Source: Tabrizicola sp. (lineage in GTDB: Bacteria; Pseudomonadota; Alphaproteobacteria; Rhodobacterales; Rhodobacteraceae). Taken from it: a DNA stretch of 64,000 bases. Every line of letters starts with the position of its first letter. Position 1 is the stretch's first letter. This document shows positions 39,371 through 50,185 of the stretch, in pieces. The stretch is from positions 1 to 64,000 of the forward strand of contig NZ_JAEULO010000049.1 in assembly GCF_016793705.1 (NCBI RefSeq), given 5' to 3'. Below the pieces are notes generated by a model. The model made no database searches. It had not been told where the DNA came from and saw nothing but the letters and a program-made list of their open reading frames with translations. The translations under genes and the position numbers were made by a program.

Positions 39371-39406
39371 AAAGGCCGGCCCGGCTGCCCCGGACCGGCC
39401 CTTTTC
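39371..39406. terminator. Bidirectional rho-independent terminator
   Basis: AAAGGCCGG...CCGGCCCTTTT forms a GC stem with A- and T-runs. It ends the SnoaL-GNAT operon on the plus strand and the NicX-type catabolic operon (last gene, APC permease) on the minus strand. Confidence 0.85.
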
Positions 39407-39418
39407 CAACAGCCTCGG

Positions 39419-40867
39419 TCAGTCGGCCAGGTTCGTCCCCATCCGGGCAAAGCGCGCCGGGTCCGACGACTTCAGCCGCTGCGCCAAGAGGAAGCCGATA
39501 ACACCCCCTGCCGGGATCAGCGCGGGCAGAAGCCAACTGAGGCTGCCGCCAGTGGTCCCGGTCAGATCGCCGTAGTTGACGAAGACGTAGACGAACAGCG
39601 CCGCCATGATCAGGCCGGCGATGGCCGGCAGGATCTTGGTCGACAGGGGCGAGCCGCCGCCCTGCTTGCCGAAGAAGGCGATCACCGACAGCGAGGTGAT
39701 GGCCATCATCCCGATCACCCCCAGGGTGCCGATCTGGCTGATCCAGGTGAACATGTTCAGGATCGGGTCCAGCCCCAGCCCCGCGAAGATCGCCAGCACG
39801 ATCAGCGCGCCGATAGTCTGCACGACCGAGCCGATATGCGGGCTCTGGTGAGCGTCATGGGTGCGGCCGAAAGCCTCCGGCAGCAGCCCGTCACGGCCCG
39901 CGACATAGGAATAGCGGGCGATGTAGTTGTGGAAGGCTGAAAGCGCCGCGAAAAGGCTGGAGACCAGCAGGAGTCCGGCAATCATCGAGATCGTCGGGTT
40001 GGTGTAGGTTTCGGCCAGGATGAAGAAATGCGCCGTCGGATCGGGCAACCCGCCGATGGTTTCCAGAAGCTTGTCGGCCCCCGTTCCGGCAATCATCAGC
40101 CAGGTGGTGAAAACGAAGAAGATGCCGATCATCAGGATCGACAGATAGGTCGCGCGCGGGATGGTCTTCTCCGGGTCCTTGGCTTCCTCGCCGTAGATCG
40201 TGGTGGCCTCGATCCCGATGAACGAGCCGAGGCAGAACAGGATCGCAGCGGTGAGCGAGCCCGAGGTCAGGGCGGAGAAGTCGAGGATGTTGACCGAAAG
40301 CCCGGTCCCTTCCGCCCCGCCCGCGCCCAGGATGGCGAAGTCGACGATCAGGACGATCAGGTATTCAAGGCCCACGAGGACAACCATCACCTTGGCCGAC
40401 AGGTCAACCTGCCGGTAGCCCAGGATGCCAACCAGCGCGATGGCGATCAGGCTGTAGACCCACCAGGGCAGGTTGATGCCGAAACCGCCGAACACCCCGG
40501 CCGAGACGCCGCCCAACAGACCGATCAGGCCGAATTGCATGGTGTTGTAGGCGACCAGCGCCATGATCGACACTGCGCCACCCCAGCTGCCGCCCAACCC
40601 CCGCGCGGCATAGGCGTAGAAGGCGCCGGCGTTGATGACATGGCGGCTCATCGCGACATAGCCGGCCGCGAAAGCCAGCATGACCAGCGTGAGCAGGATG
40701 AAGGTCAGCGGGATGCCGGTGCCATTGCCAAGAAGGAAAGCCAGAGGCATGGCCCCGGCCACCCCGGTCAGCGGGGCGGCGGCCGAGATCACCATGAAGG
40801 TGACGGCGACCAGCCCCAGCGAATTGCGTCGCAGCCGGTTTGGCCCGATTTCGGTGAATTCAGACAT
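39419..40867 (-). CDS. APC-superfamily amino acid/amine permease
   Basis: 482 residues with twelve predicted spans. The first is VAVTFMVISAAAPLTGVAGA, matching the helix-1 unwound region of the APC fold, and SFIGIEATTIYGEEAKDPEK is the conserved segment after helix 6. Relatives import amino acids, amines or polyamines by proton or sodium symport. It is the last gene of the NicX-type operon with an 82-base gap upstream (40868-40949). That gap contains TTAAACTGTTAAG, a possible separate control site. [11 protein letters not shown]. It probably brings in the pathway substrate. Confidence 0.9.
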   Translation of the reverse strand: MSEFTEIGPNRLRRNSLGLVAVTFMVISAAAPLTGVAGAMPLAFLLGNGTGIPLTFILLTLVMLAFAAGYVAMSRHVINAGAFYAYAARGLGGSWGGAVSIMALVAYNTMQFGLIGLLGGVSAGVFGGFGINLPWWVYSLIAIALVGILGYRQVDLSAKVMVVLVGLEYLIVLIVDFAILGAGGAEGTGLSVNILDFSALTSGSLTAAILFCLGSFIGIEATTIYGEEAKDPEKTIPRATYLSILMIGIFFVFTTWLMIAGTGADKLLETIGGLPDPTAHFFILAETYTNPTISMIAGLLLVSSLFAALSAFHNYIARYSYVAGRDGLLPEAFGRTHDAHQSPHIGSVVQTIGALIVLAIFAGLGLDPILNMFTWISQIGTLGVIGMMAITSLSVIAFFGKQGGGSPLSTKILPAIAGLIMAALFVYVFVNYGDLTGTTGGSLSWLLPALIPAGGVIGFLLAQRLKSSDPARFARMGTNLAD

Positions 40868-40949
40868 GTTCCCTCCTTGTTGTGCGCCGCCCGGGTCTTG
40901 AGCGCCTGGGTCAGCGGATACTGCGGATTCCCGAAGATTACTTAACAGT

Positions 40950-41468
40950 TTAACTATCTCCGGTGAGATGTATAGCCCTTCTGTAGGCCCTCTGGCCGTA
41001 GAGCAGCGCCGACGGATTGTCGGACAGCCGCACCGAAGCGACGCGACCGACGATGATGTGGTGCGTTTCCCACAAGAGTGCGGTGGCCAGGCGGCATTCG
41101 AAGGCAGCGGTCGCGCCGGACAGGAAGGGCTGGCCGATAGCGCCCTTCTCCCAGGCGACGCGGTCGAATCGTTCAGCCCGTTCGGACGCGCTGCGCCCGG
41201 CAAAGAGGTTCGATACCTCTTGCTGGTCCTCGGCCAGCAGATTGGCGCAGAAGGCACGGTTTTTCATGATCGCGCTTGCCGCAGGCGACTGGTGGTGGAT
41301 GCAGAGGAGAAGCGACGGATGCTCACCATCCGCCGAGACCGAGGTCAGCGACGACACGGTGACCCCGGCCCGCCCGCCCTCGCCATCGGTGGTGGCAACG
41401 GCGACAAATGTGGCGGCGCGGCTCATGCCCTCTAGAAAGGCGGCGCGCGGATCGGCGGCGTTGGTCAT
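40950..41468 (-). CDS. Flavin reductase (HpaC/RutF-like), monooxygenase partner
   Basis: 172 residues of the split-barrel flavin reductase fold: TFVAVATTDGEGGRAGVTVS, SLLLCIHHQSPAASAIMKNR, FCANLLAEDQQEVSNLFAG and ETHHIIVGRVASVRL. The family supplies reduced FMN/FAD to two-component monooxygenases. The most plausible partner is the ACAD-fold protein at 44764-46107 in the same operon. ATG 41468 is four bases after the stop of the GS-family gene; a start at 41486 would overlap it. Confidence 0.9.
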   Translation of the reverse strand: MTNAADPRAAFLEGMSRAATFVAVATTDGEGGRAGVTVSSLTSVSADGEHPSLLLCIHHQSPAASAIMKNRAFCANLLAEDQQEVSNLFAGRSASERAERFDRVAWEKGAIGQPFLSGATAAFECRLATALLWETHHIIVGRVASVRLSDNPSALLYGQRAYRRAIHLTGDS

Positions 41469-41472
41469 CAGC

Positions 41473-42816
41473 TCACCCAAGATCAAAGAAGCGTTGCAGC
41501 TCTACGTCCGGCACCTTGCGGCGGAATTCGTTGTGCTGAGCTTCGCGCGTGGCGGTGAATCCGTCAACGAAACGTGTGCCGAGCCAGTCGCGCGCAAAGT
41601 CCGAGGCGCGCAGGCGCTGGATCGCCTCGGGCATCGACCGCGCGAAGTCGCGGGCGGGCTCCTGCGCATAGCCGGAGCCGATGACCTCGGGCTCGGGCTC
41701 GACCTGGTTCAGGATGCCAGCAACCCCGGCGGCGATCGTCGCGGCCGCGGTAAGATAGGGATTGGTGTCGGCGCCGGGCAGGCGGTTTTCCACGCGCAAT
41801 GACCCCGGGTCGTGGCCGACCAGCCGGAAGCAGGTGGTGCGGTTCTCGTAGCCCCAGGTCAGGCCGGGGGGCGCGAAGGTGCCGGGGGCGAAGCGGCGGT
41901 AGCTGTTCACCGTCGGCTGGAAGATCAGGGTCATGTCGCCGATGTAAGCCTGCAACCCGCCGAGGAAGTGCCGGAAGGTCTGGCTGACGCCGTTCTTCTG
42001 GCTCTCGTCCCAGAAGAGCGGCTTTCCCGCCTTGTCCTTCAGGCTGATGTGCAGGTGGATCGACTGGCTGTCGGCGGCCTCGTTCCACCGCGGCATGAAG
42101 GTGACGGACCGGCCCTGGCGCAACGCAAGGGCGCGCAGGAAATTCTTCAGAAGCACCAGCTGGTCGGCGGGATCAAGCCCCTGCCCGGCGGCGATGCAAC
42201 ATTCCATGAAACCGCCGCCGATCTCCTCGTGCATCTTCGCGAGGTCGATCTTCAGCGGCTCGCAGATGCCGGCGAGCGCCTCGTACCATTCGGTCTGCAA
42301 CGCCTGGTAGATGATCAGGTCATGGCTGGCATGGGGGGTGGCGGTCTGGAGATTGCGGTAGCCCTTGGCGCGCGCGCTGTCGGGGGTTTCGTCGAAGAGC
42401 GTGTATTCCAGTTCCATGCCGTATTTCGGGAAAAGGTCGGCCTCGGCGGCGCGGGCCAGCACCCGGGTCAGGATCGAGCGCGGGCAGAGTTCGGCGGAGG
42501 CGCCGGTAAAGTTCGACAGGACCAGCAGGTCATGGCCGGGCTTCGACCAGGGCAGGCGGCGCGCGCTGGCAGGGTCGATCCGCAGCGGGTCATCGTGGAA
42601 GTCGCCGGAATCGTCGTTCACGCCGGGCAGGTTCAGATGGACATCCGTGGGGTCGAGCGCGAGCTGTGCCGGGGCCATGCCCATGCCGTTCTTCGCGATG
42701 CCCTTCATGCTCTGGGCCGAGACCATCTGCCCGCGCAGGAGGCCGTTGGTATCGGCCATCGCCACCGTCGCGAAGCGGCTGGCAGGATCGGCGAGGAAGT
42801 CGTCAAGCATCGTCAT
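41473..42816 (-). CDS. Glutamine-synthetase-family ligase (not housekeeping GlnA)
   Basis: 447 residues. The beta-grasp start is FATVAMADTNGLLRGQMVSA. Catalytic-domain signatures are MELEYTLFDE (metal Glu pair), GGGFMECCIAAGQG, SIHLHISLKDKAGKPLFWDE and FAPPGLTWGYENRTTCFRLV with the ENR motif of the family. The YFPEMPH-type adenylylation and C-terminal features of GlnA are missing. Relatives such as PuuA and IpuC gamma-glutamylate amines. Here it may glutamylate the pathway amine or a product. Its ATG overlaps the TetR stop (ATGA). Confidence 0.88.
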   Translation of the reverse strand: MTMLDDFLADPASRFATVAMADTNGLLRGQMVSAQSMKGIAKNGMGMAPAQLALDPTDVHLNLPGVNDDSGDFHDDPLRIDPASARRLPWSKPGHDLLVLSNFTGASAELCPRSILTRVLARAAEADLFPKYGMELEYTLFDETPDSARAKGYRNLQTATPHASHDLIIYQALQTEWYEALAGICEPLKIDLAKMHEEIGGGFMECCIAAGQGLDPADQLVLLKNFLRALALRQGRSVTFMPRWNEAADSQSIHLHISLKDKAGKPLFWDESQKNGVSQTFRHFLGGLQAYIGDMTLIFQPTVNSYRRFAPGTFAPPGLTWGYENRTTCFRLVGHDPGSLRVENRLPGADTNPYLTAAATIAAGVAGILNQVEPEPEVIGSGYAQEPARDFARSMPEAIQRLRASDFARDWLGTRFVDGFTATREAQHNEFRRKVPDVELQRFFDLG

Positions 42817-43484
42817 CTGTCACCTGTCGGGCTGGTAAGCGCGGCCAGTGTCTCCTGGTCCTGCGCGGGGGTGGTGGAATAGGCCTTGAGGAAGACGCGA
42901 AGGCCGTTGGTGATGTAGCGGTCGAGCGTCGCCCGGTCCGGCACCGCGTCAGGCATGTAGAGCGCCTGGGTCCGGGGGGCCGACAGGATCAGGCCCCAGA
43001 GGTCCTGCGCCGCAAGTTCGGCGTCGTCGAACACCAGCCGCCCTGCCTCGCGCTGGTTCTCGAGATAGCGCATGATCCCGCGCAGAAGGTGGTCCGGACC
43101 AGAGGCCTGGTAGGCGCGACCGATCTCGGGGAAACGGCTGACCTCGCCGATGATCAGGCGCGCCAGCGACAACAGGTCGGGCCGCATCACGGTGTCGGCA
43201 TAGGCCCAGGCGAAGGTGATGAGGTCCGCGACCATGCCGTTGTGCGAGGGGTGGTCGAAGACATCCAGCATCAGGTCGCGCTTGCCCAGCATCATCGCCT
43301 GGAAGAGCGATTCCTTCGACGGGAAGTAGGAATAGAGCGTTGGTTTCGTCACCCCGGCCTCGGCCGCCACCGCATCCATCGTGGTGCCGGAATAGCCGCT
43401 GGCCGCAAAGACGGTCAGCGCGGCGTCGAGAATCTGGCGCTCGCGGGTCAGGCGGTTCTGCTGGCGGCGCGGGAGAGCGGTCAT
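42813..43484 (-). CDS. TetR/AcrR-family regulator of the catabolic operon
   Basis: 223 residues. The N-terminal HTH is RQILDAALTVFAASGYSGTT, then MDAVAAEAGVTKPTLYSYFP and SKESLFQ. The C-terminal ligand domain resembles the AefR-like class (LIIGEVSRFPEIGRAYQASG). Its position inside the operon, with four-base overlaps on both sides (ATGA with the GS-family and hydrolase genes), implies autoregulation. The dyad at 47209-47220 before the first gene is the likely operator. Confidence 0.9.
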   Translation of the reverse strand: MTALPRRQQNRLTRERQILDAALTVFAASGYSGTTMDAVAAEAGVTKPTLYSYFPSKESLFQAMMLGKRDLMLDVFDHPSHNGMVADLITFAWAYADTVMRPDLLSLARLIIGEVSRFPEIGRAYQASGPDHLLRGIMRYLENQREAGRLVFDDAELAAQDLWGLILSAPRTQALYMPDAVPDRATLDRYITNGLRVFLKAYSTTPAQDQETLAALTSPTGDR

Positions 43485-44764
43485 GTCAGCCGGTTCAGGA
43501 AGGTCGAAAGATGGCGGTTGTAGAGATCGGGCTGTTCCACGTTGCAGACATGGCCCGCACCGGCGATCACCTCGAAGCGCACGTCGGGGCGGGGGGCGGC
43601 GTCCCAGATGCGGCCCGCGATGCCGCGGATTTCGGCGGGCGGGGCCAGGCGGTCATGTTCGCCGGTCATCAGCAGGACGGGCATGGTGAGCTTGGCGAAG
43701 TCGAAGCGCTCCAGGGGGTTGGTGAAGCAGTTCAGCGCATCGCGGTAGGTCGCTGCCGGGATCGCGGCCATGCTGTCGAAGAGGCGCTGCCGGGTGTCCT
43801 CGCTGGCGTCGGGCCCGGCCAGCACCTTCACCACCGCGGGGGCGAAGTCGGCTGGCACCTGGCCCGCATCCATCGGCACCTCGCGGGAGACGCGGAAGGC
43901 CTCGCGCTCATCCGGGCCGGCCTCGGACATGCCGGTGCAGCCGCCGGAGAGGACGAGACCATCCAGCATCTCCGGATGGCGCATGGCGAAGGAGGTGGCG
44001 ATCCAGGAGCCGTAGGAGAGGCCGACCAGCACCAGCCGCCTTGCACCAAGCTTCTCCGCGACCCGCAGGATGTCGGCGCAGTAATCGTCCACGGTGGACT
44101 GGCGCGGCCCGAGCGTGCTGTCGCCATAGCCGCGCAGGTCCAGCGCAGCCGCGCGCATGGTGGCGCCAACCGCTTGCACCTGAGGCGTCCAGTTCGTGCG
44201 TCCCCCGCCGATCCCATGCAGGAAGAGGCAGAGCCGGTCATCGCCGATCCCGGGTGTCACCGAAAGTGCCAGGCGCGGCAGGTCGTCGAAGATCAGGGTC
44301 TCGAAAGAGACAGGAGGGGACGGCCGCGGTGTCGCCGAGGCCTGCTCGGTGGCCGCCGCCAGCGCCGCGATCCCCGCCTCGAACACGGCCTTCGTGCCTT
44401 CGCAGATCGCCGTCAGCCGCGAGGCCGGGGCCCGGACGGTGGCGGTCCAGCCGACCACCGACCCGCCCGCCTCGGCTGGGGTCACGGTGATCCGGGCGTC
44501 ATAGGCCTCGCAGTCCTTGATCCCCTCCAGATGGGTGTAGCCCAGCACCCGGTCGCTGTCGGAGAGGTAGGTCAGCTGCTCGCGGTAACGCGTATCCTCG
44601 CCCTGCACCGTGAAGGCCCGGACCAAGGCCCCCTGCTCTCCCTGCTCCTCCCGGATCGTCTCGACCCACGGATGCCACGCCCCGCAGAAATCGCGGACGA
44701 CCGACCAGACCGCCTCTGGTGCAAGCGGCACGAGGCCCCTGACCTGCACCACCTCGCGCCCCAT
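43481..44764 (-). CDS. SRPBCC-alpha/beta hydrolase fusion protein
   Basis: 427 residues in two domains. Residues 1-140 form a SRPBCC/polyketide-cyclase-like domain (VRGLVPLAPEAVWSVVRDFC). Residues 155-427 form an alpha/beta hydrolase with oxyanion loop FLHGIGG (181-187), nucleophile Ser250 in GLSYG, acid Asp371 in TGEHDRLAP and His405 in AGAGHVCN. In the nicotinate pathway the alpha/beta hydrolase NicD follows NicX and removes the formyl group from N-formylmaleamate. This hydrolase could play the same step for a related ring-opened product. The fusion is unusual. Start and stop overlap its neighbours. Confidence 0.85.
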   Translation of the reverse strand: MGREVVQVRGLVPLAPEAVWSVVRDFCGAWHPWVETIREEQGEQGALVRAFTVQGEDTRYREQLTYLSDSDRVLGYTHLEGIKDCEAYDARITVTPAEAGGSVVGWTATVRAPASRLTAICEGTKAVFEAGIAALAAATEQASATPRPSPPVSFETLIFDDLPRLALSVTPGIGDDRLCLFLHGIGGGRTNWTPQVQAVGATMRAAALDLRGYGDSTLGPRQSTVDDYCADILRVAEKLGARRLVLVGLSYGSWIATSFAMRHPEMLDGLVLSGGCTGMSEAGPDEREAFRVSREVPMDAGQVPADFAPAVVKVLAGPDASEDTRQRLFDSMAAIPAATYRDALNCFTNPLERFDFAKLTMPVLLMTGEHDRLAPPAEIRGIAGRIWDAAPRPDVRFEVIAGAGHVCNVEQPDLYNRHLSTFLNRLT

Positions 44765-46107
44765 CAGCGCAGCATCCGCAAGGCGCCCGAATCCCCACGC
44801 CAGAGCGAGTTCCGCGCGCCGCCCTCGTCACCTGGCGCCTTATCCAGCTCGTCCATCTCGTAAAGCGCAAGGACCCCGATGTAGTCCTCCATGATCTCGC
44901 TGGTATAGGGGAGCATCAGCGCCCCGCAGCGGCTGTCGCGGTACATGCGCTCCAGCGGCAGCGACTTCAGCATCGACTGCCCACCACAGGTGCGGATCGC
45001 CAGCGCCGTGATCTCCTGCACGCCTTCCATCACGTTGTACTGCGCGGCATACATCCGCAGCACTTCGGCTTTCGACGGCATCCCCTTGGCTTCCGAAAAG
45101 GCCTGCCACCAGAGCGCCCGCATGTTCGCGAGGCGGGCATACATCTTCGATACCGCCACCCGCTTGGTCGCATACATCCGCCGGTCGATCGGCGGCTGGC
45201 CGGGGACGCGGCCTTGCAGATAGGCAAGCGTGAAGTCAAAGGCCCCCTGCGCCACCCCCATGTAGGTGGGGCTGAGGGTGGCCATCATGTGCGGCCAGTT
45301 CGGCAGCGTCTTGCCGAAGATGCCCTTCGGCATGAGGAGGTCGTCTTCCGTGACGAAAACGTCTTTCAGGATCAGGTCGCGGCTGTTCGTCCCCCGCATC
45401 CCCAGCGGGTCCCAGTCGCCCTTGACGGTCAGGCCCGGCGCGTCCTTGTGGACGACGAACAGCATCGTGTCCTCATGCCGCGGCTCCTGACCCTCGAACA
45501 CTTCCGTGCAGACGATGGTGTAGTAGTCGCAATAGCCGGCCAGCGAGGCGAATTTCTTGAACCCGCTGATCTTCCAGCCGCCCTCCACAGGCCGCGCCTG
45601 GGTCTGGTTCGGCTTCGAGGTCCAGTTCTGCCCGCCTTCCGAAATCGGCTGCGAGAAGATCGCGCGTTCCTTCATCGCCCGGGTGAACTGCTTCGCCCGC
45701 AACGGCGCAAAGGCCGCCTTTTCGGCCTCGGACAGGTTCGGCATGTCATACATGAACCGCGACCAGGCCATCGAGGAGTTGTGCATGTTGAAGGTCAGCG
45801 CCGTCGCGCCGCAGTACTTGGCGATCTCGGCCCCGACCATGGCATATTCGCCCATCGAGAAGCCCCAGCCGCCGAATTCCTGCGGGATCGAAAGACCCAG
45901 GAAGCCCGCGTCAGCGAGGTCCTTGTAGTTTTCGGTCGGAAACGAGGCATCGTCGTCCACAGCCTTGGCGCGCGCGGCAAAGACCGGGCCCAGCTCGTTG
46001 ATCTTGCGCATCGCCTCGGCCACCTCGGGGCGGACGCGAGTCATGTCGTAATAGTCCGCAGGGGCGCTCATCGGCATCACGGCGGGGATCGGGGACTGGT
46101 CGGTCAT
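44764..46107 (-). CDS. Acyl-CoA-dehydrogenase-fold flavoprotein, probable monooxygenase component
   Basis: 447 residues of the ACAD fold: FLGLSIPQEFGGWGFSMGEY, the flavin segment ERAIFSQPISEGG, and the helical C-terminal domain with AIRTCGGQSMLKSLPLERMY. In acyl-CoA dehydrogenases the catalytic Glu lies in YEGTSE. Here the aligned stretch is LPYTSEI (Pro about 400), so the base is missing. ACAD-fold enzymes without it (DszC-, HpaB-like) are FMN-dependent monooxygenases fed by a flavin reductase, and one is encoded in this operon. TGATG overlaps link it to both neighbours. Confidence 0.8.
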   Translation of the reverse strand: MTDQSPIPAVMPMSAPADYYDMTRVRPEVAEAMRKINELGPVFAARAKAVDDDASFPTENYKDLADAGFLGLSIPQEFGGWGFSMGEYAMVGAEIAKYCGATALTFNMHNSSMAWSRFMYDMPNLSEAEKAAFAPLRAKQFTRAMKERAIFSQPISEGGQNWTSKPNQTQARPVEGGWKISGFKKFASLAGYCDYYTIVCTEVFEGQEPRHEDTMLFVVHKDAPGLTVKGDWDPLGMRGTNSRDLILKDVFVTEDDLLMPKGIFGKTLPNWPHMMATLSPTYMGVAQGAFDFTLAYLQGRVPGQPPIDRRMYATKRVAVSKMYARLANMRALWWQAFSEAKGMPSKAEVLRMYAAQYNVMEGVQEITALAIRTCGGQSMLKSLPLERMYRDSRCGALMLPYTSEIMEDYIGVLALYEMDELDKAPGDEGGARNSLWRGDSGALRMLR

Positions 46108-47156
46108 CAGGCAAGCTCTCCTTGCAGAACGCCGTCCTTGACGACGACGCGCCCGTCGAGGGCGATGGTGCAGTTGCGCATCGGAAGGTCGAAATGGCCA
46201 AGCGTGTAGCGCCCGGCATACTGGTTGGCCCCGGTGGACCAGAGGAAGCTCCCGGCAATCGCCCGGAACTCCACCGCCTGCATGTCGCGCTTGTCGTACA
46301 TGGCGGCACTGACCCATTTCGCGCCGTGGTTCATGCCCCAGCCGACATGGCTGAGGCCGAAGGCGTTGCGGTCGCCCCACGCCGCCATGTATTCGCGCAG
46401 GTGCAGCGCGTCGATGCCGTCGCCCTTGATGGCGGTGACGAAGTCGTTCTCGATGGTAAAGTCGATGCGGCTGGTCAGGAAGGTCTTGAACGTCAGGTTC
46501 ATGTCACCCACGTCCATCACCACGCGGCCGTTCACCGCATCCTTGCCGGGGAAGGCCAGGCACAGCCCGGCGGGCCAATGCGCCACCGCGCCCGGTTTCG
46601 TCCCGAACCCCGCCGTGCCGCCACAGGGCGCGCCGCGCAGGTCGACCGTGAGGTCGGTGCCGATGGCCGAGGTGACCCGCATCTCCGACGCCTCGCGCAG
46701 CATCTGGATGCCGATCTGGAGCTTGATGTCGTCTTCAGCCTTCGGCTCGGTCCGCTCCAGGATTTCCGGGTGCTCGTTGGTAATGACCAGAAGCCGGGTA
46801 CGCCCGGCGTCCTCGATCTCCGGCCATTCCGGCGCGTGGATCAGCCCCTCGACCGTGCAGTCCACGATCACCTCGACCAGCTTCAGCGCCTCGACCACCG
46901 CGCGGTTGCCCGCAATCGCCCAACTCGTCCCGGTGGACTTGACCGGAACCGGGGCCGTCTGCGCGGGCGTCGGCATCTGGATGTGGAAACTCTCTGCGCC
47001 GAGGTCATAGGCCGCAAGCTCGCACAGATGCACCAGAACCGGCCGCGACTGGGTTTCGCTGATGATCGCGATCTTCGTACCCTTGCCGATCCCGTTCAGC
47101 GCAAAGACGCGGCGGAAGGCGGCAAGCCACTTCCCCTCGACCCGTTCCTGCAGCAT
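46107..47156 (-). CDS. NicX-like (2,5-dihydroxypyridine 5,6-dioxygenase family) protein
   Basis: 349 residues, near-identical in length to NicX of Pseudomonas. The proposed iron ligands of that family are present: His270 in GLSHVGWGMN and His321/Asp323 in GHFDLPMRNC. WPAGLCLAFPGKDAVNGRVV and VMDVGDMNLTFKTF are family blocks. NicX opens the pyridine ring of 2,5-dihydroxypyridine to N-formylmaleamate. The start at 47156 is chosen for the strong SD GGGGAGGA; a frame from TTG 47201 lacks one. It is the first gene of the operon. Some databases label the family as leucyl aminopeptidase-like (M29), which is the main alternative. Confidence 0.8.
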   Translation of the reverse strand: MLQERVEGKWLAAFRRVFALNGIGKGTKIAIISETQSRPVLVHLCELAAYDLGAESFHIQMPTPAQTAPVPVKSTGTSWAIAGNRAVVEALKLVEVIVDCTVEGLIHAPEWPEIEDAGRTRLLVITNEHPEILERTEPKAEDDIKLQIGIQMLREASEMRVTSAIGTDLTVDLRGAPCGGTAGFGTKPGAVAHWPAGLCLAFPGKDAVNGRVVMDVGDMNLTFKTFLTSRIDFTIENDFVTAIKGDGIDALHLREYMAAWGDRNAFGLSHVGWGMNHGAKWVSAAMYDKRDMQAVEFRAIAGSFLWSTGANQYAGRYTLGHFDLPMRNCTIALDGRVVVKDGVLQGELA

Positions 47157-47208
47157 CCGCGTCCTCCCCGACCCCAGGTGCGACGATTCGTCCACCTGCA
47201 AAATGCTT

Positions 47209-47220
47209 TACTGGTCAGTA
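47209..47220. promoter_or_regulatory. Probable TetR operator of the NicX-type operon
   Basis: TACTGGTCAGTA has perfect 5-bp arms (TACTG/CAGTA) around GT and is embedded in the AT-rich TTTACTGGTCAGTATAG. It sits 53 bases before the NicX-like ATG. On the minus strand a TTGACA lies at 47249-47244, with TATACT inside the dyad, although the 21-base spacing is long for sigma70. ACTGACCAGT-type dyads are common TetR sites. Confidence 0.5.
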
Positions 47221-47245
47221 TAGTTTTCTGCGGATGTGTGATCTG

Positions 47246-47688
47246 TCAACGATTTTCGTTGGCAGGTTCGTTTGTCTTTGTGGCACAATGGGTTGCCGAA
47301 CGCTGTCCCCCCAGATCATCCAGAATCGGGCAGTCCGGCCGGTCGTCACCGGCGCAGGCGTGGACCAAATTCTCCAGCGTCGCCTTCATTTCCCGCATCT
47401 CGCGGATGCGCGATTCGAGCGCCTCGACCTGGGCCTCGGCCAGTTGCCGGACGTCCGCGCTTGCCCGGCTGCGATCCCGCCAGAGCGCCAGAAGATCGGC
47501 GACCTTTTCCATCGGAAAGCCCAGGTCGCGCGCCCGGCGGACGAAGCGCAGGACCTGCACCTCCTTCGGTCCATAGGTGCGATAGCCCGACCCGGTGCGC
47601 CCGGCGGGCGGGATCAGCCCCGTCTCCTCGTAATAGCGGATCATCTTCGCCGACACGCCGCTTTCGCGGGCGGCTTCCCCGATGTTCA

Positions 47689-47689
<1 letters not shown>
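47246..47689 (-). CDS. cueR: Copper-responsive MerR-family activator
   Basis: 147 residues. The MerR HTH is MNIGEAARESGVSAKMIRYY followed by the family turn EETGLIPPAGRTGSGYRTY. The dimerisation helix leads to the metal loop CAGDDRPDCPIL, with two Cys eight residues apart, the CueR Cu(I)/Ag(I)/Au(I) signature. It activates copA by untwisting a 19-bp-spaced promoter. The ATG at 47689 (or 47692) overlaps the copA stop (TGATG). Here cueR lies downstream of copA rather than divergent. Confidence 0.92.
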
Positions 47690-50124
<2,435 letters not shown>

Positions 50125-50154
50125 GGTTGATCCTTCCTTTGCGGGGACCACCCC

Positions 50155-50185
50155 CATATGAGGCTTCCCATGATGGGAAGGTCAA
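50155..50185 (-). promoter_or_regulatory. CueR-dependent promoter with perfect dyad
   Basis: On the minus strand TTGACC (-35, 50185-50180) and CATATG (-10, 50160-50155) are separated by 19 bases, the long spacer of MerR-family promoters. The spacer contains the perfect dyad CTTCCCATGATGGGAAG (50164-50180). This matches the CueR-box layout and lies just upstream of copA. Confidence 0.85.

Follow-up and report, generated by a model that had tools for sequence, protein, structure and literature searches.

A conserved operon with a NicX-like dioxygenase in Tabrizicola sp., a candidate for opening the nitrogen ring of an aromatic compound

The 2,5-dihydroxypyridine (DHP) dioxygenase NicX of Pseudomonas putida KT2440 holds its iron by His265, Ser302, His318 and Asp320, and alanine at these positions abolishes activity, according to excerpts of PMC7910607. 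The same excerpts list Glu177, His189, Leu104 and His105 as contacts of DHP, with Glu177 holding its N1 and O1, and report a strong drop in activity when alanine replaces Glu177 or His189. For indole, the sections of PMC6221969 used here put on record oxidation by IacA, an acyl-CoA dehydrogenase (ACAD)-like protein of the indole-3-acetic acid (IAA) cluster iac, an isatin/N-formylanthranilate route dating from 1953, and an anthranilate-gentisate branch from 1983 that has no known genes. The locus studied here brings a NicX-like protein together with an ACAD-fold protein. It is a seven-gene operon on the minus strand at 39419-47156 of a 64,000-nucleotide stretch of DNA (the window) from contig C9 of a 3.8-Mb Tabrizicola sp. 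genome in 73 contigs; contigs, genomes and loci are designated below by C, G and L. We tentatively read it as a TetR-controlled catabolic operon that would open the nitrogen ring of an aromatic compound, most likely of indole type, and deliver anthranilate.

Seven intact open reading frames fill this span on one strand, just as the original prediction had placed them. The first, nicX (46107..47156, 349 aa), encodes a predicted NicX-like Fe(II) ring-opening dioxygenase. It is followed by genes for an ACAD-fold flavoprotein with Pfam acyl-CoA dehydrogenase domains (44764..46107, 447 aa), possibly the oxygenase half of a two-component monooxygenase; a fusion of an SRPBCC (Polyketide_cyc2) domain to an alpha/beta hydrolase (43481..44764, 427 aa; PF10604 at residues 11-139, PF00561 at 180-409), possibly a deformylase or amidase; a TetR/AefR-like regulator (42813..43484, 223 aa; PF00440, PF14246); a glutamine synthetase (GS)-family ligase (41473..42816, 447 aa; PF00120); a RutF/HpaC-like flavin reductase (40950..41468, 172 aa; PF01613); and an APC-family permease (39419..40867, 482 aa; PF13520/PF00324). 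From nicX to the permease gene, the junctions measure -1, -1, -4, -4, +4 and +82 nt. These overlaps, together with a predicted hairpin terminator at 39371..39403, favour the earlier view that the operon works as one unit, but because the permease gene sits 82 nt away, joint transcription of all seven genes is only likely. The hairpin, a 14-pair stem between the operon and a convergent GNAT gene (-31.5 kcal/mol for a 61-nt stretch, z of -3.07 against shuffles), has a weak T run and was not listed by a consensus terminator scan.

In a phmmer search of PDB sequences, the sole match of the NicX-like protein below an E-value of 0.1 is the DHP dioxygenase 7cn3 (4.1e-56); no Pfam or NCBIfam family matches at 1e-3. 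Its His270, Ser307, His321 and Asp323 align with the four iron ligands of NicX, which bears out the predicted integrity of the iron site and extends it to Ser302, not considered at the time. To place the protein, we aligned 93 clade rows (at least 68% identity, with some genomes occurring twice, e.g. L042 and L069), six distant rows (40-53%) and six canonical sequences. The ligands are kept in 93 of 93 clade rows (the Asp in 92 of 93). Arg293 and His189 of NicX are kept too, and a two-residue insertion precedes Leu104. The position of Glu177 is Glu in all six canonical sequences, Thr in all 93 clade rows (Thr181 in the window) and Val or Ile in all six distant rows; that of Glu308 is Tyr throughout the clade. 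Judged by these residues, the protein should share the chemistry of NicX, and since the DHP-binding Glu177 is replaced by Thr in every clade row, DHP itself is probably not the substrate. Peptidase M29, an identity that had been named as one that would refute this assignment, finds no support: neither Pfam (1e-3) nor the PDB sequences gave an M29 match. What emerges is a subfamily of NicX in which the unusual iron ligand Ser is retained and the Glu that binds DHP is lost, and which goes by the label 'peptidase M29' in public plasmid records.

This subfamily travels with a conserved set of genes. Scanning named genomes gave 109 confirmed relatives, and all counts over 80 loci refer to the best 80 of these 109, with genes called at identity limits of 45-60% that vary by gene. 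The ACAD gene is found in 78 of the 80 loci, the hydrolase in 77, TetR in 72, GS in 70, the flavin reductase in 63 and the APC permease in 52; the two ACAD and three hydrolase misses all fall at contig ends. We regard the conserved NicX-ACAD-hydrolase cassette as secure. The exact seven-gene order, which the original prediction had proposed to seek in other genomes, recurs in an Ensifer adhaerens plasmid. Hosts of the relatives, Rhodobacteraceae and Rhizobiales among them, include Rhodobacter, Gemmobacter, Tabrizicola, Cypionkella, Sulfitobacter, Mesorhizobium, Rhizobium, Shinella, a SAR116 cell and a Chromatiales symbiont, among others, and the operon is not rare. Of 149 genomes of the family that were surveyed, 24 encode some relative of NicX (1e-3), and a member of this clade is found in 10. 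The distant nicX genes (40-53%) adjoin hydrolase-like, ACAD and AMP-ligase-like genes in L051-L054, with genes named by eye as molybdenum (Mo)-hydroxylase-like nearby in L049 and L054.

Described systems share parts of the operon and differ in others. The parallel with the nic pathway drawn in the original prediction stands for the NicX family itself, but is weakened by the loss of Glu177 and by different neighbours: the five canonical NicX plasmid loci carry varying sets of hydrolase, isochorismatase-family, NicE-type and Mo-hydroxylase or FAD monooxygenase genes, whereas the window operon has no gene for NicC, NicE, NicF or a Mo-hydroxylase. The iif/ind indole cluster likewise ends at anthranilate and uses a two-component flavin oxygenase, but the parts of PMC6221969 and PMC9871250 drawn on here describe a styrene-monooxygenase-type oxygenase, a short-chain dehydrogenase (SDR) and a cyclase-family or cofactor-independent enzyme. 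None of the seven window proteins is an IifC-type oxygenase, the SDR IifB or IifA. A RutF-like reductase and a TetR regulator are shared with the rut pathway, but the RutF model (123.8 bits against a cut-off of 254.75 for the reductase) and the RutR model score far below cut-off, and RutA finds no match. The iac cluster has its ACAD-like oxygenase in common with the operon, and IacG is the flavin reductase partner of IacA; that cluster is not known to include a NicX-like protein. The 2-aminobenzoyl-CoA and gentisate pathways are represented by similar genes beside the operon in part of its relatives, and are proposed here as lower routes, not as the operon itself. The main text of a survey of IAA degraders (PMC11630574), as far as it goes, yielded nothing matching, and a literature search gave nothing relevant by title for the homarine pathway. 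As had been supposed, no described pathway with this gene set was found in the literature searched.

The neighbours of nicX suggest that the operon feeds an aminobenzoate: a gentisate module and an anthranilate-CoA-ligase-like gene occur among them, and one other genome (G135) groups both with a gene for a 2-aminobenzoyl-CoA-type monooxygenase. A gentisate 1,2-dioxygenase (best PDB sequence 3bu7, 5.9e-168) is present in 35 of the 80 loci, and in 28 of the 61 in which both flanks are long enough to judge neighbours. All 35 genes lie upstream on the same strand and end 1.2-3.1 kb from nicX, in hosts that span Rhodobacteraceae, Rhizobiales, the SAR116 cell and the Chromatiales symbiont. The module usually includes an FCD-GntR regulator and an FAH-family gene; another flavin reductase and a nitrilase-like gene are often part of it. 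Two loci, L098 and L099, have a NicE-type isomerase gene as the end of the gentisate module, standing with a nitrilase-like gene directly 5' of nicX, an arrangement that fits maleate as end product. The ligase (best PDB sequence 4wv3, 'Anthranilate-CoA ligase', 1.2e-80) occurs 3' of the permease in nine of the 80 loci, in eight of them on the same strand. In G134 (L210), a ligase homologue overlaps by 4 nt a kynureninase gene, which scores over the TIGR01814 cut-off. In G135, a stretch of about 9 kb has the ligase on the same strand as gentisate dioxygenase, FAH, nitrilase and a monooxygenase of PRK08255 type; genes of this last type belong to the salicylyl-CoA 5-hydroxylase/oxidoreductase kind (a homologue in L169 scores 1286 bits, cut-off 1078). 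The Tabrizicola genome itself has the ligase and PRK08255-type genes on C10 and a gentisate module on C73, and directly behind that module lies a decayed nicX fragment (L008 13309-13600) covering residues 104-200 in two frames.

From the gene set, its conservation, the iron ligands, the loss of Glu177, the upstream repeat described below and the neighbours, all of them read from sequence, we infer which compound is degraded, what the GS-family ligase does and each reaction of the following scheme. The APC permease would import an aromatic nitrogen compound, which the ACAD-fold protein and the RutF-like reductase, acting as a two-component flavin monooxygenase, would hydroxylate at C3 of an indole-type ring. 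The NicX-type Fe(II) dioxygenase could then cleave 3-hydroxyindole between C2 and C3 to N-formylanthranilate, a step proposed because N-CH=C(OH) of 3-hydroxyindole equals N1-C6H=C5(OH) of DHP. The SRPBCC-hydrolase would release anthranilate and formate. Anthranilate would continue by the 2-aminobenzoyl-CoA route or by the gentisate-dioxygenase route (5-hydroxyanthranilate or gentisate to maleamate/maleate), and the Tabrizicola genome carries genes of both lower routes on other contigs. An indole-like ring is the simplest choice because the product is taken to be anthranilate. The originally predicted catabolism of an N-heterocycle or aromatic amine agrees with a coherent, conserved operon, and an aromatic amine is possible, but the neighbours point to anthranilate rather than to pyridine chemistry.

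We hold the indole reading at well under one half, because genome co-occurrence, the ACAD models and neighbours of an amine or acid type weigh against it. Of the 10 genomes of the family in which the nicX clade occurs, six have both the ligase and the PRK08255-type gene, and three have gentisate dioxygenase; anthranilate dioxygenase exceeds its cut-off in none of the ten, and G056, G123, G145 and G146 (83% complete) have no tested lower-pathway gene at the limits used. The clade is in turn absent from seven of 10 genomes with gentisate dioxygenase. The six genomes with the ligase are precisely those with a full-length tryptophan 2,3-dioxygenase (five over cut-off, G134 just under; G146 has no more than a fragment, located where a contig ends), so tryptophan may be all that the ligase serves. 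Its enrichment is weak, with six of 10 clade genomes against 46 of the 139 others. Whole-genome co-occurrence, being both weak and confounded with tryptophan dioxygenase, was dropped as proof of an anthranilate product. At the level of the locus, 26 of 61 have neither gentisate dioxygenase nor ligase. The older proposed routes go via isatin, an intermediate that does not appear in the present scheme, and indole needs no GS-family ligase and no amino-acid permease. For the ACAD-fold protein, the best NCBIfam models describe true acyl-CoA dehydrogenases, with scores that stay far below cut-off, so that it may be a dehydrogenase. In some relatives, TTT, peptide- or betaine-type transporters, amidotransferase, P450 and amine-oxidase-like genes lie nearby (named mostly by eye) and suggest an amine or acid substrate. 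The larger proposal, an undescribed O2-dependent route from an indole-type compound to anthranilate via a NicX-type Fe(II)-Ser dioxygenase, with the upstream module also supplying the missing genetics of the indole-anthranilate-gentisate route of strain In3 (1983), is a possibility that we rate as unlikely. If the indole reading is true, steps so far known from biochemistry alone gain their genes, and it becomes possible to test whether these bacteria turn over indole.

Much of the same evidence can be arranged around other substrates. A monocyclic, N-substituted or otherwise modified hydroxypyridine might be converted by NicX and the hydrolase to maleamate or an N-alkyl maleamate, by the nitrilase-like enzyme to maleate, and by the NicE-type isomerase to fumarate. 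The gene order of L098 and L099 could be read in this way, and the isomerase of L098 shares 63-71% identity with NicE from four canonical loci; loss of Glu177, the contact of DHP N1, suits an N-substituted ring; and a methylamine-type role would account for the GS-family ligase, with N-methylglutamate-synthase-like genes, named by eye, in the vicinity in L043 and L132. We find this pathway doubtful. The isomerase was seen beside nicX in those two loci, and it can belong to the gentisate module, since L182 pairs a homologue with gentisate dioxygenase without nicX; the gentisate dioxygenase of 35 loci and the ligase of nine also go unexplained. Another candidate, of comparable appeal and likewise improbable, is an arylalkylamine or aromatic amine to which the GS-family ligase first adds a gamma-glutamyl group, in the manner of Puu-type pathways, with oxidation and ring opening to follow. 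The high frequency of the GS and APC genes (70 and 52 of the 80 loci) speaks for it, as does the Phe in place of the flap Glu in the window ligase. So do a class I amidotransferase-like gene that belongs to the same gene run in L048 and scores below model cut-offs, and, near nicX in L046, L060, L073, L092, L122 and L124, a P450-like gene (by eye) accompanied by another GS-family gene. This candidate has to contend with L123, L128, L131 and L132, where the core cassette is present, the 3' flank is complete and GS is absent at 50% identity, so that the ligase is not essential, and with the lack of a constant amine-oxidising gene among the loci.

It is also conceivable, if rather unlikely, that the gentisate module and the ligase are mere neighbours in aromatic-catabolism islands and say nothing of the nicX product. 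The 26 loci with neither gene, co-occurrence that is weak in both directions and an operon repeat separate from the gentisate module would all follow. Chance vicinity sits poorly with 35 of 35 gentisate dioxygenase genes keeping strand, side and distance across diverse taxa, and with the decayed nicX fragment retained behind the module in the Tabrizicola genome. An ordinary nicotinate/DHP (nic) pathway has NicX homology in its favour and is very improbable: the residue that is Glu177 in all canonical sequences is Thr throughout the clade, excerpts of PMC7910607 describe the E177A enzyme as strongly impaired, and of the canonical nic set the operon has merely a distant hydrolase.

The remaining enzymes allow several assignments. 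The best PDB sequences for the ACAD-fold protein are 5gj7, titled a putative acyl-CoA dehydrogenase, and 5z8t, titled a flavin-containing monooxygenase. In structure models built from thin alignments and of middling quality (pLDDT 71.1 for the ACAD-fold protein, 70.6 for the hydrolase), fold Z is about equal for true ACADs and ACAD-fold monooxygenases, so fold alone leaves the reaction unsettled. The catalytic Glu of SCAD-type enzymes appears to be replaced by Pro400. As to the original assignment as a probable monooxygenase, the fold and the reductase partner are present and the best NCBIfam models, below cut-off, are dehydrogenases; we consider this role plausible. The hydrolase, earlier placed in the NicD position, is indeed an alpha/beta hydrolase, with Ser250, Asp371 and His405 invariant in two alignments of its relatives, but it carries the extra N-terminal SRPBCC domain and appears only distantly NicD-like: it matches three of five canonical proteins at 24-28% over 82-259 aa and the other two not at all at 1e-3. 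A true glutamine synthetase was rejected for the GS-family ligase, which scores below the cut-offs of all four listed NCBIfam models, GlnA included. The flap Glu of such enzymes sits at the ammonium site; where 8oow reads GYEAP, the window protein reads GTFAP, with Phe replacing this Glu, and the ligase perhaps gamma-glutamylates an amine other than ammonia.

Upstream of nicX, an inverted repeat, CTTAACT-N4-AGTTAAG, is found with up to three mismatches in 78 of 93 regions, where two-base-block shuffles predict 0.9. Of the 82 regions that have the repeat with up to four mismatches, 74 show a TTGAC starting 25-29 nt ahead of it. In the window, the probable TetR operator is CTATACTGACCAGTAAAG (47206..47223, minus strand, three mismatches), preceded by TTGACA (47244..47249, minus strand), a possible -35 element that shares bases with the stop codon ending the CueR-like gene upstream; a sigma-70 scan listed no promoter. 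A one-mismatch scan finds the site 5' of nicX in 10 of 10 genomes; G000 (on C73) and G152 (on C86) have one more site apiece. A backwards control pattern gives 0-3 matches per strand in the same genomes, so the number of sites does not by itself exceed the control, and it is the place of the repeat that is informative. Use of the repeat as a regulon marker was dropped, as the scan gave no second operon. The repeat, which belongs to the nicX operon and not to the gentisate module, suggests a local TetR switch.

In four loci from genomes of the family (L044, L046, L047 and L048), SRPBCC domain, hydrolase and TetR form one protein, an unusual fusion of enzyme and repressor that is 665-666 aa long in L044, L046 and L048. 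Together with the conserved repeat, such fusions are direct handles for finding the inducer. The flavin reductase of Aminobacter is fused to a LysR substrate-binding domain, and the same fusion, without the DNA-binding half of LysR, occurs at L037 19701-20879 and in several Rhizobiales loci. The Dolichospermum relative of the ACAD-fold protein stands alone.

Some further features of the surroundings deserve mention. Gentisate modules elsewhere adjoin unrelated genes, as in L180. Tryptophan-dioxygenase-like (L183) and indolepyruvate-oxidoreductase-like (L177) genes near such modules fall below model cut-offs, and the cyclase-like protein of L181 matched no model; none of the three was used as main evidence. 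An amidotransferase-like gene lies near nicX in five of the six loci with a P450-like gene. An APC permease, an OYE-type flavoprotein and a GcvT-like protein, perhaps an N- or O-demethylation unit, accompany the gentisate module or the operon in L008 (up to 7699) and L037 (20931-25736). Directly 5' of the operon, the window has CueR and CopA genes (47246-50157), as do L055, L059, L075, L078 and L079.

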